Shown piece by piece: positions 34,748-62,654 of a stretch of 64,000 nt of DNA. The stretch covers positions 1,178,001-1,242,000 of the forward strand of contig NZ_FCNV02000001.1 in NCBI RefSeq assembly GCF_001544615.1. The letters run 5' to 3'. The position numbers were made by a program, and so were the translations under genes. This DNA comes from Caballeronia concitans. GTDB lineage: Bacteria; Pseudomonadota; Gammaproteobacteria; Burkholderiales; Burkholderiaceae. Numbering within the stretch: position 1 is the first letter of the stretch; the number at the start of each line of letters is the position of its first letter. The notes beneath the pieces are model-generated. The model was not told the DNA's origin and did not search any database. It was given only the letters and a program-made list of their open reading frames with translations.

Positions 34748-36106
34748 TTACTGCGGCTGCTGCTGATGCCGATGATGACGTGCGCCCGACGCTGCCGTTG
34801 CCGGCGCGGCGGCGGAAGCGGCGGAAGCGCCCGACGCACCGGAAGCACTCTTGGGCTTGTCGGCCGGAATGGTGATCTTCGCGCCTTCCTTCAGGCGATC
34901 CGACCCGTCGATCACGACGCGCTCGCCCACTTGCAGCCCGGACTTGATGCTGGTGCGCTCGCCATCGACAGGACCGGTCTTCACGTTGCGCACGGTCACG
35001 GTGTTGTCCGGCTTCACGACATACACGAACGCGCCCGACGACCCGTTCAGCACGGCGGAAGTCGGCACGATGGTCGCGTTCTTGATGACATCGACGAGCA
35101 GCTTCGTGTTCACGAACTGGTTCGGAAACAGCATGCCTTCCTTGTTCTGGAAGGTGGCGCGCAGCTTGACGGTGCCGGTGGTGGTGTCGATCTGGTTATC
35201 GACCGTTTCCAGATAGCCGGCTTCGATCGCGGTGGTGTTCGCGCGGTCGTACGCAGTCACGGACATCTTCGAGCCCGTGTGCAGCGGCTTGAGAATGGCC
35301 GCGAGGTTGTCTTCGGACGTGGTGAAGATCACGCTGATCGGCTGCAACTGCGTGATGACGACGACGCCGTTCGTGTCGCCCGTGGTCACGTAGTTGCCCG
35401 GATCGACCTGCCGCAGTCCCACGCGGCCCGACACCGGCGCGGTAATGCGCGCGTAGGTCAGATCGAGCTTGTAGGTATCGACGTTTGCCTGATCAGACTT
35501 CACTGCGCCTTCGTATTGCTTGACGAGCGATGCCTGCGTGTCCACCTGCTGCTTCGCGATGGAGTCCTGCGAAAGCAGCGTCTGATAGCGCTGCAAATCC
35601 AGACGCGCGGTTTGCAGCAGCGCCTGATCGCGCGCGAGCGTGCCTTCGGCGTTGCGCAGCGAAATTTCGTACGGACGCGGGTCGATCTGCGCGAGGAGAT
35701 CGCCTTTCTTGACCATCTGGCCTTCGGTGAACGCGACGTTCATCAAGGTGCCGTTCAACTGCGTCTTCACCGTGACGTTCGCGAGCGGCGTGACCGTGCC
35801 GAGCGAATTGATGACCACGGGCATTTCGCCTTGCGCGACGGTGGCGACATGAACCGGCTGCGGCTGATTCATCGGGTTCGCGCCGCGGCGTCCGCCCTGA
35901 CGCGCTTCCTGCGGCTGGCCCGGCGTGCCGTCGCGATTCCACGGATGCCACCACGCCACCGCTCCCGCGACGATCAGCACCGCGACCACGAGCGGCACGA
36001 GCCGGCGACGGCGCGGCGGCGTGACGGCGGTGACGGGCGGGGCGGGATCGGCGGGACGCGTGGGTTGCTGGCGTGACTGCGCGGGAGTGGTCTTTTGATC
36101 GTCCAT
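34748..36106 (-). CDS. mdtA: RND efflux periplasmic adaptor MdtA-like
   Basis: A 452-aa membrane-fusion protein linking the MdtBC pump to an outer-membrane channel. A basic, Pro-rich cytoplasmic start is followed by one membrane anchor (VPLVVAVLIVAGAVAWW) near residue 45. The lipoyl half-motifs are VTVKTQLNGTLMNVAFTEGQMVKKGDLLAQIDPRPYE and the mirror ARITAPVSGRVGLRQVDPGNYV, with an alpha-hairpin between. The tail is Ala/Ser-rich and ends in a His/Gln-rich ARHHRHQQQPQ run. ATG at 36106 (MDDQKTT) places the anchor correctly; the frame is open upstream. First gene of the mdtABC operon, downstream of the IclR-family gene. Confidence 0.93.
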   Translation of the reverse strand: MDDQKTTPAQSRQQPTRPADPAPPVTAVTPPRRRRLVPLVVAVLIVAGAVAWWHPWNRDGTPGQPQEARQGGRRGANPMNQPQPVHVATVAQGEMPVVINSLGTVTPLANVTVKTQLNGTLMNVAFTEGQMVKKGDLLAQIDPRPYEISLRNAEGTLARDQALLQTARLDLQRYQTLLSQDSIAKQQVDTQASLVKQYEGAVKSDQANVDTYKLDLTYARITAPVSGRVGLRQVDPGNYVTTGDTNGVVVITQLQPISVIFTTSEDNLAAILKPLHTGSKMSVTAYDRANTTAIEAGYLETVDNQIDTTTGTVKLRATFQNKEGMLFPNQFVNTKLLVDVIKNATIVPTSAVLNGSSGAFVYVVKPDNTVTVRNVKTGPVDGERTSIKSGLQVGERVVIDGSDRLKEGAKITIPADKPKSASGASGASAASAAAPATAASGARHHRHQQQPQ

Positions 36107-36442
36107 CGTTCGGTGGCTGGGTGTTTCCAAGTCTGTCGTGCGGGGCGCGGATGGGCGGCATCTCGCGATGCGGTCGGGGCGGGGGCCGGGAATGTTGCGG
36201 CGGGAGAAGCCCGCCGGTTCGAGGAAACCGATATGCGGCAAGCGTTCGCCAGCGTTCCCGCGCGGCCCCGGTGCGCGCGAAGCATGATGCTACGTCCCGC
36301 GCCGATGCCCGTCCACACGGCATTCTTTCTGTTGATTACGGCTGTTACATGAAGCCTTCGATCCGGCTTTCGATGTCCACCGATCTCTCGCCGGCGATGA
36401 CTTCGCGCAGCAGCGCGGGCCATCGACACCAGGCGCGACAGT
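36107..36442. other. Intergenic stretch between the IclR gene and mdtA
   Basis: 336 bp with no supported gene. It presumably holds the mdtABC promoter on the minus strand. Short open frames on both strands look random. No clear -10/-35 pair or hairpin was found. Confidence 0.45.
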
Positions 36443-37285
36443 TTACTTAATCTCGCGCAGGGGCGTCTTGTTGCCCGCCGTGCCGCCGATTTCGCGCGCG
36501 ATATAGTCGACGCATTCGAGCAGCGCCGGAGCGATGGTCCCGACAAGCGTTTCGTGGGGGCATTGATGCGCGGCGCCGCCGCAGTTGACCGAATAATGCT
36601 CTTCCGACGGACCGACGAAGCCCGCCGCCACCGCATTCAGCCCGAGATGCCATTCGCCGAGCGAGGTCGCGAAGCCGTAGCGGCGCGCATCTTCGAGACC
36701 GCGCTGCAGGCCGCCGGCGATCGCCGGCCAGTCGTCGCCCGATGCGGTCTGCAGGCTTCCGATCAGCGCCAGCCTGTCGGCATCGGGCAGCACCGAAAGG
36801 TACGCGCGTCCGACCGCCGTTCGGCTAAGATCCATCCTTCCGCCGACTTCGAGCCGCGAAACGAGCACGGCCGAGCGCGGCCGGATTGCGTCGATGACGA
36901 CCATTTCCAGCCGGTCTCGCACGGCGAGATGGACGCTCAGGCCGGTGCGTTCCGCCAGCGCGATCAGAAACGGCCGCGCCCGCGCGCGGATGTCGAAATT
37001 GCGCAGGAAGCCGTTGCTCAGTTCGAGCACGGAGGCGGTGAGCACGAAGCGCTCGCTGTCGGGCAGACGAAGCAGCAATCCGGCGCCGACGAGCGTCGCC
37101 GTGATGCGCGAGACGGTCGGCTTCGGAATGCCGGTCCAGTCGGTCAGTTCGCGATTGCTGACAGGCGCGTCCGCCGCAGCGATCCGGCGCAATACGTCGA
37201 GTCCGCGTGCGAGCGCGGTGACTTCATCGCTATCTTTCTCTCTCGTCTTGTCCCGGTTCGGCGACCGGCTGCTCATCGTATGCAT
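36443..37285 (-). CDS. IclR-family transcriptional regulator
   Basis: A 280-aa regulator. The N-terminal winged helix has ALARGLDVLRRIAAADAPVSNRELTDWTGIPKPTVSRITATL. The effector-binding GAF-like domain follows from about residue 110, with LSVHLAVRDRLEMVVIDAI and the near-invariant AVGRAYLSVL stretch. ATG at 37285 (MHTMSS) is used; a second in-frame ATG lies three codons later, and neither has a strong ribosome site. It lies upstream of mdtABC on the same strand, 336 bp away. A KdgR-like palindrome 11 bp upstream of the ATG suggests autoregulation. The ligand is unknown. Control of mdtABC is only suggested by position. Confidence 0.87.
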   Translation of the reverse strand: MHTMSSRSPNRDKTREKDSDEVTALARGLDVLRRIAAADAPVSNRELTDWTGIPKPTVSRITATLVGAGLLLRLPDSERFVLTASVLELSNGFLRNFDIRARARPFLIALAERTGLSVHLAVRDRLEMVVIDAIRPRSAVLVSRLEVGGRMDLSRTAVGRAYLSVLPDADRLALIGSLQTASGDDWPAIAGGLQRGLEDARRYGFATSLGEWHLGLNAVAAGFVGPSEEHYSVNCGGAAHQCPHETLVGTIAPALLECVDYIAREIGGTAGNKTPLREIK

Positions 37286-37295
37286 TGGTATTTGT

Positions 37296-37308
37296 GAAAC
37301 ATCGTTTC
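37296..37308 (-). promoter_or_regulatory. Candidate IclR-family operator (GAAAC-N3-GTTTC)
   Basis: GAAACATCGTTTC is a 5-bp palindrome with a 3-nt spacer, 11 bp before the IclR-family start codon. It resembles the GAAAC-N3-GTTTC core of KdgR (IclR-family) boxes as I recall them. Autoregulation is inferred. Confidence 0.45.
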
Positions 37309-37328
37309 GGATGCGAGTTTCGTGGACG

Positions 37329-37357
37329 ACTATGACGACGCCGCTGCAAGTTTGCAA
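37329..37357 (-). promoter_or_regulatory. Candidate promoter of the IclR-family gene
   Basis: On the minus strand TTGCAA (37352-37357) and CATAGT (37329-37334) are 17 bp apart. Three TGCAAG copies (37345, 37353, 37362) surround the -35 box at 8-9 bp steps and may bind a regulator. Confidence 0.35.
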
Positions 37358-37460
37358 GCCATGCAAGCCCAGATCATAAGTGGTACGGCGTATGTAACTT
37401 TTTGATGATACGTCGCCGCAACACACCCTTCGGGCAGATGCCCGGACGCAGAAATTTTGC

Positions 37461-37489
37461 TTGACTTGAGCAGTGATCCCGTAAAAAAT
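37461..37489 (+). promoter_or_regulatory. Candidate sigma-70 promoter of the small RNA
   Basis: TTGACT at 37461-37466 and AAAAAT at 37484-37489 are spaced by 17 bp. An inverted repeat CGGGCA-GA-TGCCCG (37431-37444) lies 16 bp upstream of the -35 box and could be an operator. RNA would start near 37496. Confidence 0.5.
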
Positions 37490-37495
37490 GGAACC

Positions 37496-37632
37496 CGATT
37501 TCGAAACCGGCCGGCGATGTGCGCGAGCGCTTTCCGCCCCCGAAACTCGGATACAGGCTCTCAGGTTCTAGCACGGCCCTCGGAATGGCTAGAACTTTTA
37601 AGGCGCTACGGAAACGTAGCGCCTTTTTTTTT
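37496..37632 (+). ncRNA. Candidate intergenic small RNA (about 137 nt)
   Basis: No coding frame with a ribosome site is seen, but the stretch has a sigma-70-like promoter, a stem-loop AGGTTCTAGC / GCTAGAACTT (37563-37572 with 37588-37597, one G-U pair) and a terminator with nine T residues. The long 3' U tail and structured 3' half fit an Hfq-binding trans-acting RNA. No plus-strand gene follows for over 800 bp, so a leader or attenuator role is unlikely. I do not recognise the family; the 5' end is estimated from the promoter. It is divergent from the IclR-family gene. Confidence 0.55.
37602..37632 (+). terminator. Strong intrinsic terminator of the small RNA
   Basis: A perfect 9-bp stem GGCGCTACG / CGTAGCGCC closed by a GAAA tetraloop and followed by nine T residues on the plus strand. 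This is the strongest terminator in the window, yet no protein gene precedes it on this strand. Confidence 0.9.
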
Positions 37633-37747
37633 CGCCGACGATTTTTGGTCGATCGGCTCCGACGTGGCCCTGAATATACGCTGAAAGCGCGCAAAGCGCT
37701 TAATTTATAAGCACTGGAACGAGGGGCTGCGGAGGCGAAGTAGGCGG

Positions 37748-37780
37748 CAGATCGGGCGCAAATCGGGCGGCAAATCGGGC
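37748..37780. repeat. Three phased copies of CARATCGGGC
   Basis: CAGATCGGGC (37748), CAAATCGGGC (37759) and CAAATCGGGC (37771) follow one another at 11- and 12-bp steps in the gap downstream of the small RNA. The role is unknown. Confidence 0.7.
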
Positions 37781-37862
37781 GGCGACGGATGCGGCGCGGG
37801 CGGAGCAGTGCGTGACCGCGTGCCGGTCGCAACGCCCGTTCGGAGCCAGCGGAAACTTCGAT

Positions 37863-38171
37863 TCAGTGAAGCGCGTTGAACACGCGACGCTGCCTCAAGA
37901 GCAGCCTGCCGCGCACGAGCCAGTACACGCTCGCTGCGAGCAGCACGATGGCAATGGCGAACGGGAGGAGCGGATTGATCCGTTCGGGTGCGGGTTGACT
38001 CGTTGCCACCAGCAATGCCGCGAAAAAAGCGCCGGCGGCTTGGCAATAGGACCGCTTGGCGAGGATCCGCCGCATGCGATGCGTGGCAAAGCGGGACACG
38101 GGAGCGCGCGTAAACGGTTCGAACAGCATCAGCCCTGCGACGAGGGCGACGGCGATATTCATGTAAAGCAT
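37863..38171 (-). CDS. Small membrane protein, unknown function
   Basis: A predicted 102-aa inner-membrane protein with two hydrophobic segments (IAVALVAGLMLFEPF and PFAIAIVLLAASVYWLV) and a third weaker one (AAGAFFAALLVA), with a basic C-terminus. I do not recognise the family. ATG at 38171 is used; a second ATG three codons later is possible. The frame is open further to a TTG at 38234 that has AGGAG 11 nt upstream, but those codons lack the usual G/C third-position bias. It stands alone, flanked by phased repeats on both sides. No clear terminator follows, although AAGCGC/GCGCTT at 37685-37701 might act as one. Confidence 0.5.
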   Translation of the reverse strand: MLYMNIAVALVAGLMLFEPFTRAPVSRFATHRMRRILAKRSYCQAAGAFFAALLVATSQPAPERINPLLPFAIAIVLLAASVYWLVRGRLLLRQRRVFNALH

Positions 38172-38390
38172 GGCAGGACTTCGGTAGGAGGGCGGAAACT
38201 GCCGGCGAATATATGCCGAGGCGGGATCGCTCAAAACCAGAAGTCTCCTAAATATAGAGGAAAGACTCTACTGCGCCGCGCTTTCGCTGGCGTTTTTCAC
38301 CTAGGCGCAGTTCGCTTTCGATGCAAGCTTCGCCGGTGAACGATTGCGGACAGCGTATGATGAGCGCGCATTTCGAGCTGGACGGCGCGC

Positions 38391-38445
38391 GTACCTAACG
38401 CATGCCTGACGCGCACCTAACGCGAATGTCATGCGTATCTGACGC
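38391..38445. repeat. Five tandem 11-bp repeats upstream of the lipoprotein gene
   Basis: Five consecutive 11-mers ending in CTRACGC: starts 38391, 38402, 38413, 38424 (degenerate) and 38435. Four share the exact core CTAACGC or CTGACGC, all on one helical face. They end 51 bp before the ATG. The rest of 38172-38390 holds no supported gene. Confidence 0.75.
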
Positions 38446-38496
38446 GCCGCGCATCCGTGCGCCGAATCGCGCACGTTTCAACGTAGGAGCAAGACC

Positions 38497-38943
38497 ATGC
38501 AGATGACTCCCTTTACTCGCATCGCGGTGGCGCTGGCGGCGTTAGGCCTCCTGGCCGCGTGCGAAAAACACGACGCCACTGCGGGACAGGCCGCGAGCGC
38601 GCTGAACAATCTCGCGAGCCAGACGAACCAGAAGTTCGATCAGGCGGCGAGCTACGTCGGCCAGAAGGTGGATGCCGCGAAGCAGTCGGCACAGCAGAAT
38701 CTCGACAAGACCGGTTCCATGCCGGATCTGTCCGCGAGCGATGCCGTGGCTTCCGCGCGGGCGAACCTTCAGGGCGCGGCGAGCGCGACGAACGCCGCCA
38801 TCGCCGATGCCGCCAGCGCGACCGGCGCGGGCCTCCAGTCGGCGGGACGCAAGCTGCAGGAGTGGTCCGCGAAGGACGGCGGCGCGTCCAGCACGAGTCC
38901 CACGGCCGATCCGTCCGGCACGCGCACGGACATGGACAAGTAG
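38497..38943 (+). CDS. Ala-rich lipoprotein
   Basis: A 148-aa outer-membrane or periplasmic lipoprotein. The signal peptide ends in the lipobox LAAC (Cys22). The mature part is an Ala/Ser/Gln-rich amphipathic helix predicted to be coiled-coil-like (NLASQTNQKFDQAASYVGQKVDAAKQ). It resembles late-embryogenesis-like or apolipoprotein-like repeat proteins rather than an enzyme. A Thr/Ser/Asp-rich tail follows. AGGAG lies 7 nt before the ATG. It is 110 bp upstream of the mechanosensitive channel gene on the same strand, and preceded by five phased 11-bp repeats. The function is unknown; a stress or envelope role is a guess. Confidence 0.75.
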   Translation: MQMTPFTRIAVALAALGLLAACEKHDATAGQAASALNNLASQTNQKFDQAASYVGQKVDAAKQSAQQNLDKTGSMPDLSASDAVASARANLQGAASATNAAIADAASATGAGLQSAGRKLQEWSAKDGGASSTSPTADPSGTRTDMDK

Positions 38944-39053
38944 CGCGCCTTCATCGACTTCGCACGCCGCGCTTAACATTCGGTTACCTCACCGATGCGC
39001 GGCGCGTCGAAGTCAGCCGGTAAACTGGCGGGCTTTCGGATATCGAGACCGTT

Positions 39054-41696
39054 ATGAAGCTACGCAAGCTCGCGCATCGCGTCGCGCTGGCGTTCGTCGC
39101 GAGATCCCGGATGCCGGTGTTCGCCGCCACGCGCGCGCGGCCGGCGCTGACGCTCGCGACCTTCCTCTTCGCCGCACTTTCCTTCCTGGCGATCTCCTCC
39201 GCAGAAGCCGCGCCCGCGCTCGATCTGCCTTCGTTCCAGGAACTCATCGCGCCGCCCGCGCCGGCATCGTCGGCTGACGGGCAGGGCGCTGCGTCCGCGC
39301 CCACGGTGTCGGATGCCGACGTGCTCCGTTCGCTCGACACCGTCATCGCGACGCTCGACAACGATCGCCAGCGCACGGCGCTCGTCGCGCAACTCAAGCG
39401 CCTGCGCGAGGCGAAGCACGCGGCGGCGTCGGCGGCGAGCACGTCGTCCGGTTCGTCGGGTTCGACCGCTCCGTCCGCTTCGTCAGCCGATAAAGCGCCG
39501 CCCACCGCCGATGCCGCCGCAGCCTCCGCCGCCAGCGCCGCCGCGAGCGCGCCGGTGGTGCCGTCGGTGGTGGCGAGCATCGCGCAGAACGCGGGCTTGC
39601 TCGGCGCGATCGCCTCGGCGGTCACGAGCCTCGAAGCCGACGTGAAGCGCGGCAAGACGCCGCTCGCCTATTGGGGCGGGCGCTTCAACGCGGCGGGCAA
39701 CGAGCTTTTCACCATCGTCACGAGTCAGAGCCGAGAGCCGTTCGGCCGCACGCTGCTCAACTACTTCGGAATGCTTGCCGGCTGGGGCGCGTGCGCGTTC
39801 GCGCTCGTGTATTTGCAGCGGCGCGTGTTGAACCGCTATGGCATCGACAGGTCGCTTCATTCGAATCCGACGACGCGCGAACTGCTGCTCTTCGCGATGC
39901 GCCGCGTCGCGCCGTATCTCGTCGCGTTCCTCGCGGCGCTGACGTTCGCGCGCCTGATGCCGCAATCGCTCGGCCGCACGCTCGCGATGGTCACCGCGTA
40001 CGCCATCGTCGCGGGCGCGGTGTTCTCGGCCATCTGCCTCATCATGTTCTCGCTGTTCGGCTCGGCGCACCGGCGCGTGGCGGTGAACGTGCTGATCATC
40101 CACGCGCGGCGTCTGCTGTTCCTGATCGGCACGCTCGGCGCGCTCGGCGATGCCGCCGCCAACTACGACGTCGCGCAGCAGCTCGGCACCAACCTGTCCG
40201 CGCTTATTTCGACCTTCGCGAACATGGCGGCCGCCGGGCTCACGGCCTATTTCGCGCTCGCGTTCCAGCGGCCGGTCGCGCATCTGATTCGCAGCCGCAC
40301 GTACGAGCAGCGCTTCACGCGCAAGGCCGCGACCGAAACGTTCGATGTCGTCGCCTCGCTCTGGCAATTGCCCTTGCTGCTGCTCGCGTCGGCGTCGGTG
40401 GTGGCGACGCTCGCGGGCATCGGCACGTCGGAAAACGTGCTGCAAATGGCGATTGCAACGGCGGGCTTGCTCGTCGTCGCGTTCTTCCTGTCGGCCATCG
40501 TGATCCGCATCACGCGGCCCAAGTCGCGCCGGCCGCGCCGCCAGTCGGCGTATGTGCGGCGGCTCGTGAAGTTCGTCGGCACGATGATCGTGGTCGGCGT
40601 ATGGCTCGCGTTCCTCGAAGTGTCGTCGCGCTTCTGGGGCTTCTCGCTCGCGGACATGGCCGAGCGCAGCGTCGCGGCGCGCGGCATCACGCACGCGGTC
40701 AGCATGATCGTGCTGACGTTCTTCGTCGTATGGCTCGTGTGGATTCTGATCGACACCGGCATCCAGGAAACGCTCAAGCCCGACTCCGCGCGGCGCGGCG
40801 GGCGCGGCCCGAGCATGCGCGCGCGCACCATGCTGCCGCTTCTGCGCAACGTCGTGTTCGTCGTGCTGCTGCTGATCGCGGCGATCGTCACGGCGGCGAA
40901 CCTCGGCCTCAACGTGACGCCGCTGCTCGCGGGCGCGGGCGTGATCGGTCTCGCGGTCGGCTTCGGCGCGCAATCGCTCGTGGCGGATCTGATCACGGGG
41001 CTGTTCATCATCATCGAGGACACGATTTCGGTCGGCGATTCGATCGAGGTCGAAGGCGGCCACGCGGGCATCGTCGAAAGCCTGACGATCCGCACCGTGC
41101 GCCTGCGCGACGGCCAGGGCGCCATTCACGCGATTCCGTTCTCGCAGATCAAGACGGTGAAGAATCTGTCGCGCGATTTCGCTTACGCGGTGTTCGAAGT
41201 GCGCCTGCCGTTTTCCGCCGATGTCGATCAGGCAACCGAAATGATTCGCGAGGTCGGTGCCGAACTGATAGACGATCCGCGCTACCGGCGCGAGATGCTG
41301 GGGCCGGTGGAAGTGTGGGGACTGGACCGCTTCGATCCGAACTGGATGGTCGTGAAAGGGCAGATCAAGACGCGGCCGCTACAGCAATGGAGCGTCGCGC
41401 GTGCGTTCAATCTGCGCATCAAGCGGAAGATGGACGAAGCCGGCATGGAGATTCCGGTGCCGCAAATGCAGGTGCAGATGTCACGCGATCCGGGCTATCA
41501 CGGTGATTCCGACGATCGCGCGGCGAAGTCCAGACGCATCTGGATCGACGAGGAAGACGCGGCCGATGCCGCCGAAGCGCCGCGCGCCGTCGCGGTCGAT
41601 GTATCGCACGAGCCGCGGCCCGCGCCGCCTCCGACGGATCACTCGGTGCAGATTCCGCCGCAGATACCGACCGCGCCGGAGCCGGGCAAGGGCTGA
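39054..41696 (+). CDS. Mechanosensitive channel, MscS family (YbiO-like)
   Basis: An 880-aa inner-membrane channel of the MscS superfamily. A signal sequence ends near AISSAEA. A Ser/Ala/Pro-rich periplasmic stretch of about 150 residues follows, then about ten membrane segments. The pore helix and upper beta domain are AGAGVIGLAVGFGAQSLVADLITGLFIIIEDTISVGDSIEVEG near residues 625-665, diagnostic for MscS. A cytosolic tail of about 70 residues is Pro/Asp/Ala-rich. The layout resembles YbiO (741 aa), with a longer N-terminal stretch. It opens under hypo-osmotic shock to release solutes. Neighbouring lipoprotein gene may be co-expressed. Confidence 0.9.
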   Translation: MKLRKLAHRVALAFVARSRMPVFAATRARPALTLATFLFAALSFLAISSAEAAPALDLPSFQELIAPPAPASSADGQGAASAPTVSDADVLRSLDTVIATLDNDRQRTALVAQLKRLREAKHAAASAASTSSGSSGSTAPSASSADKAPPTADAAAASAASAAASAPVVPSVVASIAQNAGLLGAIASAVTSLEADVKRGKTPLAYWGGRFNAAGNELFTIVTSQSREPFGRTLLNYFGMLAGWGACAFALVYLQRRVLNRYGIDRSLHSNPTTRELLLFAMRRVAPYLVAFLAALTFARLMPQSLGRTLAMVTAYAIVAGAVFSAICLIMFSLFGSAHRRVAVNVLIIHARRLLFLIGTLGALGDAAANYDVAQQLGTNLSALISTFANMAAAGLTAYFALAFQRPVAHLIRSRTYEQRFTRKAATETFDVVASLWQLPLLLLASASVVATLAGIGTSENVLQMAIATAGLLVVAFFLSAIVIRITRPKSRRPRRQSAYVRRLVKFVGTMIVVGVWLAFLEVSSRFWGFSLADMAERSVAARGITHAVSMIVLTFFVVWLVWILIDTGIQETLKPDSARRGGRGPSMRARTMLPLLRNVVFVVLLLIAAIVTAANLGLNVTPLLAGAGVIGLAVGFGAQSLVADLITGLFIIIEDTISVGDSIEVEGGHAGIVESLTIRTVRLRDGQGAIHAIPFSQIKTVKNLSRDFAYAVFEVRLPFSADVDQATEMIREVGAELIDDPRYRREMLGPVEVWGLDRFDPNWMVVKGQIKTRPLQQWSVARAFNLRIKRKMDEAGMEIPVPQMQVQMSRDPGYHGDSDDRAAKSRRIWIDEEDAADAAEAPRAVAVDVSHEPRPAPPPTDHSVQIPPQIPTAPEPGKG

Positions 41697-62478: not shown

Positions 62479-62520
62479 CGGGTTCGGAAGAAGTGGTCTG
62501 AGGCGAAACCGACGAACCCG
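62479..62520 (-). promoter_or_regulatory. Expression-platform hairpin of the thiC riboswitch
   Basis: CGGGTTCG / CGAACCCG with a 26-nt loop, just 3' of the TPP aptamer on the minus strand, followed by CACCTTTCC. It might be a terminator or a translational switch element. Confidence 0.35.
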
Positions 62521-62522
62521 AA

Positions 62523-62643
62523 CGCTTCCCTGCGCTGGCATTATCCAGATCAGGTTCAAAGGGTATTTCTCACCCACGATACACGGGCGATTCGACCGGT
62601 CATGCCGACTCGAATCGCGATGTGCAGCGCAGGACCCCCGCGT
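62523..62643 (-). promoter_or_regulatory. TPP riboswitch (THI element) upstream of thiC
   Basis: On the minus strand the aptamer runs from GCGGGGGTCC through TGAGAAATACCC, TGAACCTGATCTGGATAATG and CCAGCGCAGGGAA, all conserved THI-box blocks. It lies about 140 nt before the thiC start. Binding of thiamine pyrophosphate should lower thiC expression. Confidence 0.95.
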
Positions 62644-62654
62644 TAGCAGCCGCC

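Follow-up and report, generated by a model that had tools for sequence, protein, structure and literature searches.

A Caballeronia orthologue of the small RNA ncS54 with a conserved 5' segment that probably pairs with ribosome-binding sites

We analyzed a 64,000-nucleotide stretch of the Caballeronia concitans genome, hereafter called the window, in which a preliminary description made from the sequence had proposed an undescribed, free-standing small RNA (sRNA). When the whole window was searched with Rfam covariance models (cmscan), positions 37554-37630 of the plus strand matched RF02871, the ncS54 family, at 86.7 bits against a gathering cut-off of 43 (E = 6e-19), with model positions 1-79 aligned. 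The marked stretch is an sRNA gene, namely the Caballeronia-group orthologue of ncS54. Because the locus matches RF02871, the label 'undescribed' proved to be wrong; the Rfam search that had been recommended as a check returned ncS54 well above its cut-off. Membership in RF02278 was rejected, since the interval 37300-37800 gave no RF02278 match even at E values up to 1, and BSnc120, isrJ, suhB/mmgR, ncS025 and ctRNA_p42d all scored far under their own Rfam cut-offs at the ncS54 locus. Elsewhere in the window, a TPP riboswitch (RF00059) resides on the minus strand at 62509-62649 (59.8 bits, cut-off 54.3).

The ncS54 RNA of Burkholderia cenocepacia J2315 has been measured at 128 nt (Table 1 of Sass et al., 2017, PMC5688073), with values of 3.1-fold in biofilm and 2.0-fold in starvation (Table 2), and an alternative start is named in the text of that paper. 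We found no tested function or target for ncS54 in the literature searched, including the portions of PMC5688073 and of the 2024 review PMC10987360 that were available to us; the term ncS54 is absent from those portions of the review, and 'RF02871' was not found in a full-text literature search.

In layout, the gene begins with a promoter that is conserved, followed by a 5' leader that varies, a hairpin whose stem differs on both sides between copies, and a terminator. The promoter, TTGACT-17-AAAAAT, occupies 37461-37489 on the plus strand and was located by pattern scan and conservation. A start placed 7 nt after the -10 box predicts a full transcript of about 137 nt (37496-37632, plus strand). 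Stem-loop 1 spans 37563-37597 and is formed by arms at 37563-37572 and 37588-37597 that enclose the conserved loop ACGGCCCUCGGAAUG (37573-37587), and the intrinsic terminator at 37600-37632 consists of a stem (37600-37625) with a GAAA loop and a run of T residues. The promoter, the 10-bp first stem-loop and the inverted repeat CGGGCA-GA-TGCCCG (37431-37444, without assigned strand) are all present as first described; so are the GAAA cap and the T run of the terminator, whose stem has 11 pairs in our scan and not the nine reported earlier. Pattern counts across 36000-39500 are close to chance, with one promoter-like site (0.6 expected) and five terminator-like sites (3.3 expected), neither of them above chance by pattern alone. 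The features of the locus rise above chance through the Rfam match, through their conservation and through folding of the 137-nt transcript, whose energy of -53.8 kcal/mol corresponds to z = -2.89 when compared with 200 shuffles.

Conservation of the -10 and -35 boxes in close relatives had also been suggested as a check. Under the promoter rule TTGAC-18-[AG]{4}AT, with the start again set 7 nt after the -10 box, the promoter is kept in 29 of the 30 loci of the Burkholderia-like genus g11, with L067 as the exception. All 29 loci yield predicted transcripts of 126-129 nt (127 nt in 23 of them), in agreement with the 128 nt measured in J2315. Over L001-L064, a set in which some genomes are duplicated, 53 of 60 loci obey the rule, with lengths of 127-140 nt. 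Promoter and terminator are present and conserved, the transcript itself having been measured in J2315 only. Of the 42 distinct regions upstream of the loci L001-L064, 36 contain the core of the inverted repeat, GGGCANNTGCYC; it is missing from two regions of the same genus (L028 and L031) and from four Trinickia/Paraburkholderia regions (L058-L061); from its sequence, the repeat at 37431-37444 is a possible operator.

The conserved neighbour of the sRNA gene is a divergent gene at 36443-37288 on the minus strand, whose protein matches Pfam IclR_C (67.9 bits) and HTH_IclR (48.2 bits), both above cut-off, bearing out the earlier assignment to the IclR family. By tblastn, an IclR gene lies beside ncS54 in 39 of the 42 loci that come from other genera, a count in which one place is present twice and four loci were fetched through the IclR gene itself (35 of 38 without them). 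This divergent neighbour is a feature noted in the present analysis and stands outside the Rfam definition of RF02871. The adjacent IclR-type protein led to 32 named loci, 22 of them from Caballeronia and the rest from Burkholderia, Paraburkholderia or Trinickia.

Mechanical open reading frames (ORFs) of 75 and 63 amino acids (plus strand) and 152 amino acids (minus strand) cross the interval, and we consider its use for protein coding unlikely because the RNA core is conserved. The earlier statement that more than 800 bp follow without a plus-strand gene holds only if a mechanical plus-strand ORF at 37812-38339, which lies opposite a minus-strand ORF of 123 amino acids, is set aside; the next plus-strand ORF that we take as a gene starts at 38497. 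The family match, the conserved promoter, the conserved neighbour and the J2315 length support the proposal of a free-standing sRNA of about 137 nt. The locus resembles ncS54 of J2315 (PMC5688073) in its RF02871 membership, in the core and promoter spacing that Burkholderia-like loci share, in length (128 nt measured there, 137 nt predicted here) and in the IclR neighbour of Burkholderia-like loci. In contrast, the locus in the window has a different 5' leader and a different inverted repeat upstream, and paralogous copies like those in the genome of the window are not mentioned for ncS54 in the available text of PMC5688073.

Three ncS54 matches above cut-off are present in this genome (86.7, 60.4 and 57.8 bits), and the two extra copies carry CUCUCAGGUUC. 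Matches at E <= 0.001 were found in 55 of 58 genomes of the same genus (above cut-off in 53) and family-wide in 144 of 299 genomes (above cut-off in 131); at this E value the RF02871 search also gave a hit, under cut-off, in one of 14 control genomes. Two to four matches, some of them under cut-off, occur in 42 of the 58 same-genus genomes. Model R1 served for copy counts only, because its structure is without the terminator stem. Among the extra copies no clear common promoter position emerged: a -10-like box is near CTCTC in four of 23 copies, against 1.0 in shuffles, and the 23 include L063, which is a primary copy that carries an insertion.

We aligned 30 copies, comprising 28 of 56 distinct copies (one with a longer end) and two others. 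The 5' block CUCUCAGGUU does not vary and the loop CCCUCGGA hardly varies, a constancy that partly follows from the way in which the copies were picked. Stem 1 retains standard pairs at 88.6%, and its two-sided changes amount to 18 cells, versus 5.7 in shuffles and with none of 500 shuffles reaching 18. Four pairs show two-sided change and 13 pair types occur, values that were reached by 35 and 18 of the 500 shuffles, respectively. Compensatory change is evident chiefly at a single pair (A-U in 12, G-C in 11).

The segment CUCUCAGGUUC at 37558-37568 (plus strand) is the exact complement of GAACCUGAGAG, and we propose it as a pairing seed on the basis of target-site counts, orthologue comparison and fold. 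A search for the exact complement of CUCUCAGGUUC followed by an ATG after 2-16 nt found GAACCUGAGAG in this position 99 times over the 58 same-genus genomes, as opposed to 3 times for a reversed control and 8 times for a scrambled control that keeps CTGAGAG (one pattern, run in the Caballeronia-like genus only). Of the 99 occurrences, 89 remain once nine that are antisense to sRNA copies and one duplicate from a nested ATG are set aside; many of the sites fall in a single gene family, so the occurrences are not independent. Genus g11 gave 110 occurrences in 61 genomes versus one for the reversed pattern; these 110, of which 30 were read as loci, include one antisense occurrence (L259), another with the identical string and six nested-ATG duplicates. 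In genus g3, the motif occurs nine times in 60 genomes (twice reversed), and the ncS54 survey, which covered 39 of the 60, gave four weak matches with E values from 1.1e-5 to 9.5e-4. In the genome of the window itself, ACCTGAGAG precedes an ATG eight times, versus two for the reversed pattern. Complementarity extends over 13 nt at the small-protein gene L135, 12 nt at the reductase gene L138, 10 nt at L139 and 9 nt at L137, which encodes a small protein resembling that of L135; L136 is antisense to an ncS54 copy, and L140-L142 have short ORFs. An A directly precedes the site, where it would lengthen the pairing, in 33 of 69 Caballeronia-like sites (ORFs of at least 60 amino acids) against a background of 0.23, although these sites are not independent because many fall in one gene family; the base counts leave out four occurrences by a text rule, L159 among them wrongly.

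These counts suggest that ncS54 is probably a trans-acting RNA that represses by covering ribosome-binding sites, paired through CUCUCAGGUUC/GAACCUGAGAG. Trans action appears likely from the target rule, and a block of translation is what the position of the sites would imply. As judged by sequence only, the seed is complementary to ribosome-binding sites of mRNAs and this complementarity has been kept by evolution. With regard to Hfq binding, the one feature seen in the sequence is the terminator with its long T run. An alternative is that GAACCUGAGAG is targeted mainly by the paralogous copies, or by another RNA that shares their 5' end, and that the main role of the primary copy in the window is a different one. 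The two further copies with CUCUCAGGUUC in this genome and the frequency of multiple matches in the genus are in line with this alternative, which we nevertheless consider unlikely given that some single-match genomes still have sites (G038 has one match and four occurrences) and that the core of the primary copy is identical in the genera shown, except in L063.

The predicted fold of ncS54 suggests how pairing with ribosome-binding sites might proceed. In the fold of the core, CUCUC is unpaired (P 0.98-1.00) and AGGUUC is within stem 1, and so the simplest route would be landing on the open bases followed by opening of the stem. Single-stranded CUCUC would land on GAGAG before the start codon of the target, stem 1 would open so that pairing could run on through AGGUUC, and the resulting 11-bp duplex of GAACCUGAGAG and CUCUCAGGUUC would block translation. 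The extra copies of ncS54, which are on other contigs, would work as siblings through an identical seed. When the full 137-nt transcript is folded, pairing partly takes up the first two bases of the seed (unpaired at 0.26 and 0.44). Co-folding favours binding over the separate folds by 5.8 kcal/mol for L138 and 12.9 kcal/mol for L135. Duplex energies are modest relative to shuffled targets (z = -2.8 for L138 and -2.4 for L135), the best of which bound more strongly than either real pair.

It is also conceivable, and we judge it slightly less probable than a site used mainly by the paralogous copies, that ncS54 acts mainly through its loop CGGCCCUCGGA, bound to a protein or RNA, and that the site motif owes its presence to something else, for example an RNA-binding protein. 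Such a role would account for a loop that is nearly invariant while the stem varies, and a loop-complement pattern does precede ATG 72 times versus 23 reversed in the 58 genomes. However, this pattern is purine-rich, was compared with a reversed control only, and includes occurrences antisense to sRNA copies. Loop complementarity within the target windows, which a second seed would predict, is at chance (3 of 116 versus 2.6 expected), and evidence for the loop in that capacity is weak. The site motif, for its part, is exactly complementary to the invariant 5' end, and few instances of it occur in genus g3.

The genes that would be controlled through this seed were examined by clustering the downstream proteins of at least 40 amino acids, which number 97 and fall into 32 clusters; 80 of the proteins share a cluster with at least one other. 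The largest cluster consists of 28 small proteins of the YKGH or IIYHGGAAFEP type, with lengths of 73-115 amino acids (mostly 74-88), and another holds eight small proteins of the EIDHLERV type; three small-protein members that were tested had no Pfam or NCBIfam match. The small-protein families of L183, L135, L185 and their relatives are present in several copies in some genomes. Sites also precede acetoacetyl-CoA reductase genes in six genomes and aspartase genes in five. The reductase, which carries out a step in polyhydroxybutyrate synthesis, is represented in this genome by L138, the one of the six put to family models, which passes TIGR01829 (358 bits, cut-off 302) and falls under the PhaB equivalog NF042966 (194 versus 436). 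The aspartase L184, the one of the five so examined and cut by the end of its locus, passes NF008909 (665 versus 510) and falls under TIGR00839 (616 versus 681). Two N-formylglutamate deformylases, of which L162 passes TIGR02017, two inovirus coat proteins, of which one was tested by family search, and MFS transporters are likewise among the products of site-bearing genes. Of a further four proteins, one was examined, as a fragment, and matches Phage_GPD (34.1 bits, cut-off 30.1), a family of VgrG-like proteins. Caballeronia-like targets would thus be multi-copy small proteins, acetoacetyl-CoA reductase, aspartase and N-formylglutamate deformylase, and Burkholderia-like targets would be MFS transporters, Phage_GPD (VgrG-like) proteins and others. 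The exact site precedes the reductase gene in only six of the 58 same-genus genomes, and most target genes differ between species.

One gene family allows the site to be compared with its surroundings. When the 58 genomes were searched with the L183 small protein, a query taken from the motif search, 14 matches reached >= 70% identity, a threshold chosen after the list was seen. Thirteen are near-full-length orthologues, 12 of which have the exact 11-mer while L280 differs at its first base; the fourteenth, L286, has the 11-mer ahead of a frame that is terminated after 13 codons. Averaged over pairs of the 13, identity is 0.99 within the site versus 0.37 in the 25 nt upstream, of which the last, A-rich stretch is best kept. 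The sites were aligned by a text rule that fixes all but the first base, and for most of them these stretches are also seen when the rule is not applied. More distant homologues of L183 often keep part of the site or none. That the motif excess reflects only the shared ancestry of a few gene families and purine-rich ribosome-binding sites, as the 28 of 97 proteins in a single cluster might suggest, is very improbable in view of the few occurrences of the control that keeps CTGAGAG, the spread of the proteins over 32 clusters and this family, whose flanks diverged when the site did not.

For the proposed repression at ribosome-binding sites by ncS54, the closest known systems share parts of the arrangement. 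Like the RF02278 double-hairpin RNAs ncS03, ncS05, ncS27 and ncS62, ncS54 combines a hairpin with a terminator, exists in several copies per genome and has CU-rich unpaired stretches that would, on paper, face ribosome-binding sites (PMC5688073); unlike them, its locus is without an RF02278 match. In the genome of the window, nine separate RF02278 matches, six of them above cut-off, were found at L143-L150. CU-rich unpaired stretches directed at the ribosome-binding sites of metabolic genes are likewise described for the NmsR siblings of Neisseria meningitidis (via PMC5688073), which, unlike ncS54, form a tandem pair and whose likeness is drawn from description, not sequence. For candidate sRNAs in general, PMC5688073 already raised target prediction, made with CopraRNA and tabulated in its supplements, and the idea that some of them could mask ribosome-binding sites with unpaired, CU-rich regions; in the available text of those sections, ncS54 is not singled out. 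What we add, relative to the text of PMC5688073, is the seed-site rule with its controls.

We hold the chances to be about evenly balanced that ncS54 is, more broadly, the founder of a family of sibling sRNAs with one fixed 5' seed, and that genes enter its regulon by gaining the 11-nt site. Lineage-specific regulons would then have been built by site gain at ribosome-binding sites. The Caballeronia-like regulon would comprise small-protein families, acetoacetyl-CoA reductase and amino-acid metabolism, and the Burkholderia-like regulon would comprise transporters and VgrG-like and phage-coat genes. The 11-nt pairing rule with its controls makes ncS54 directly testable, and the first targets to be named are the acetoacetyl-CoA reductase gene and the small-protein families without a Pfam or NCBIfam match in the members tested.

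Two further observations concern the 5' part of the RNA. The leader of L139 (approximately 1500-1580 of that locus, minus strand), upstream of a gene that is presumably LysR-like, is complementary to both the ncS54 seed and the loop (z = -5.3), a double pairing for which the wider set of target windows gave no support. Finally, in two genomes a partial copy of the ncS54 5' part (CTCTCAGGTTCTAGC) is convergent to an ncS54 paralogue about 100 nt away, at approximately 1610-1695 of L002 (minus strand) and 2345-2430 of L095 (plus strand).
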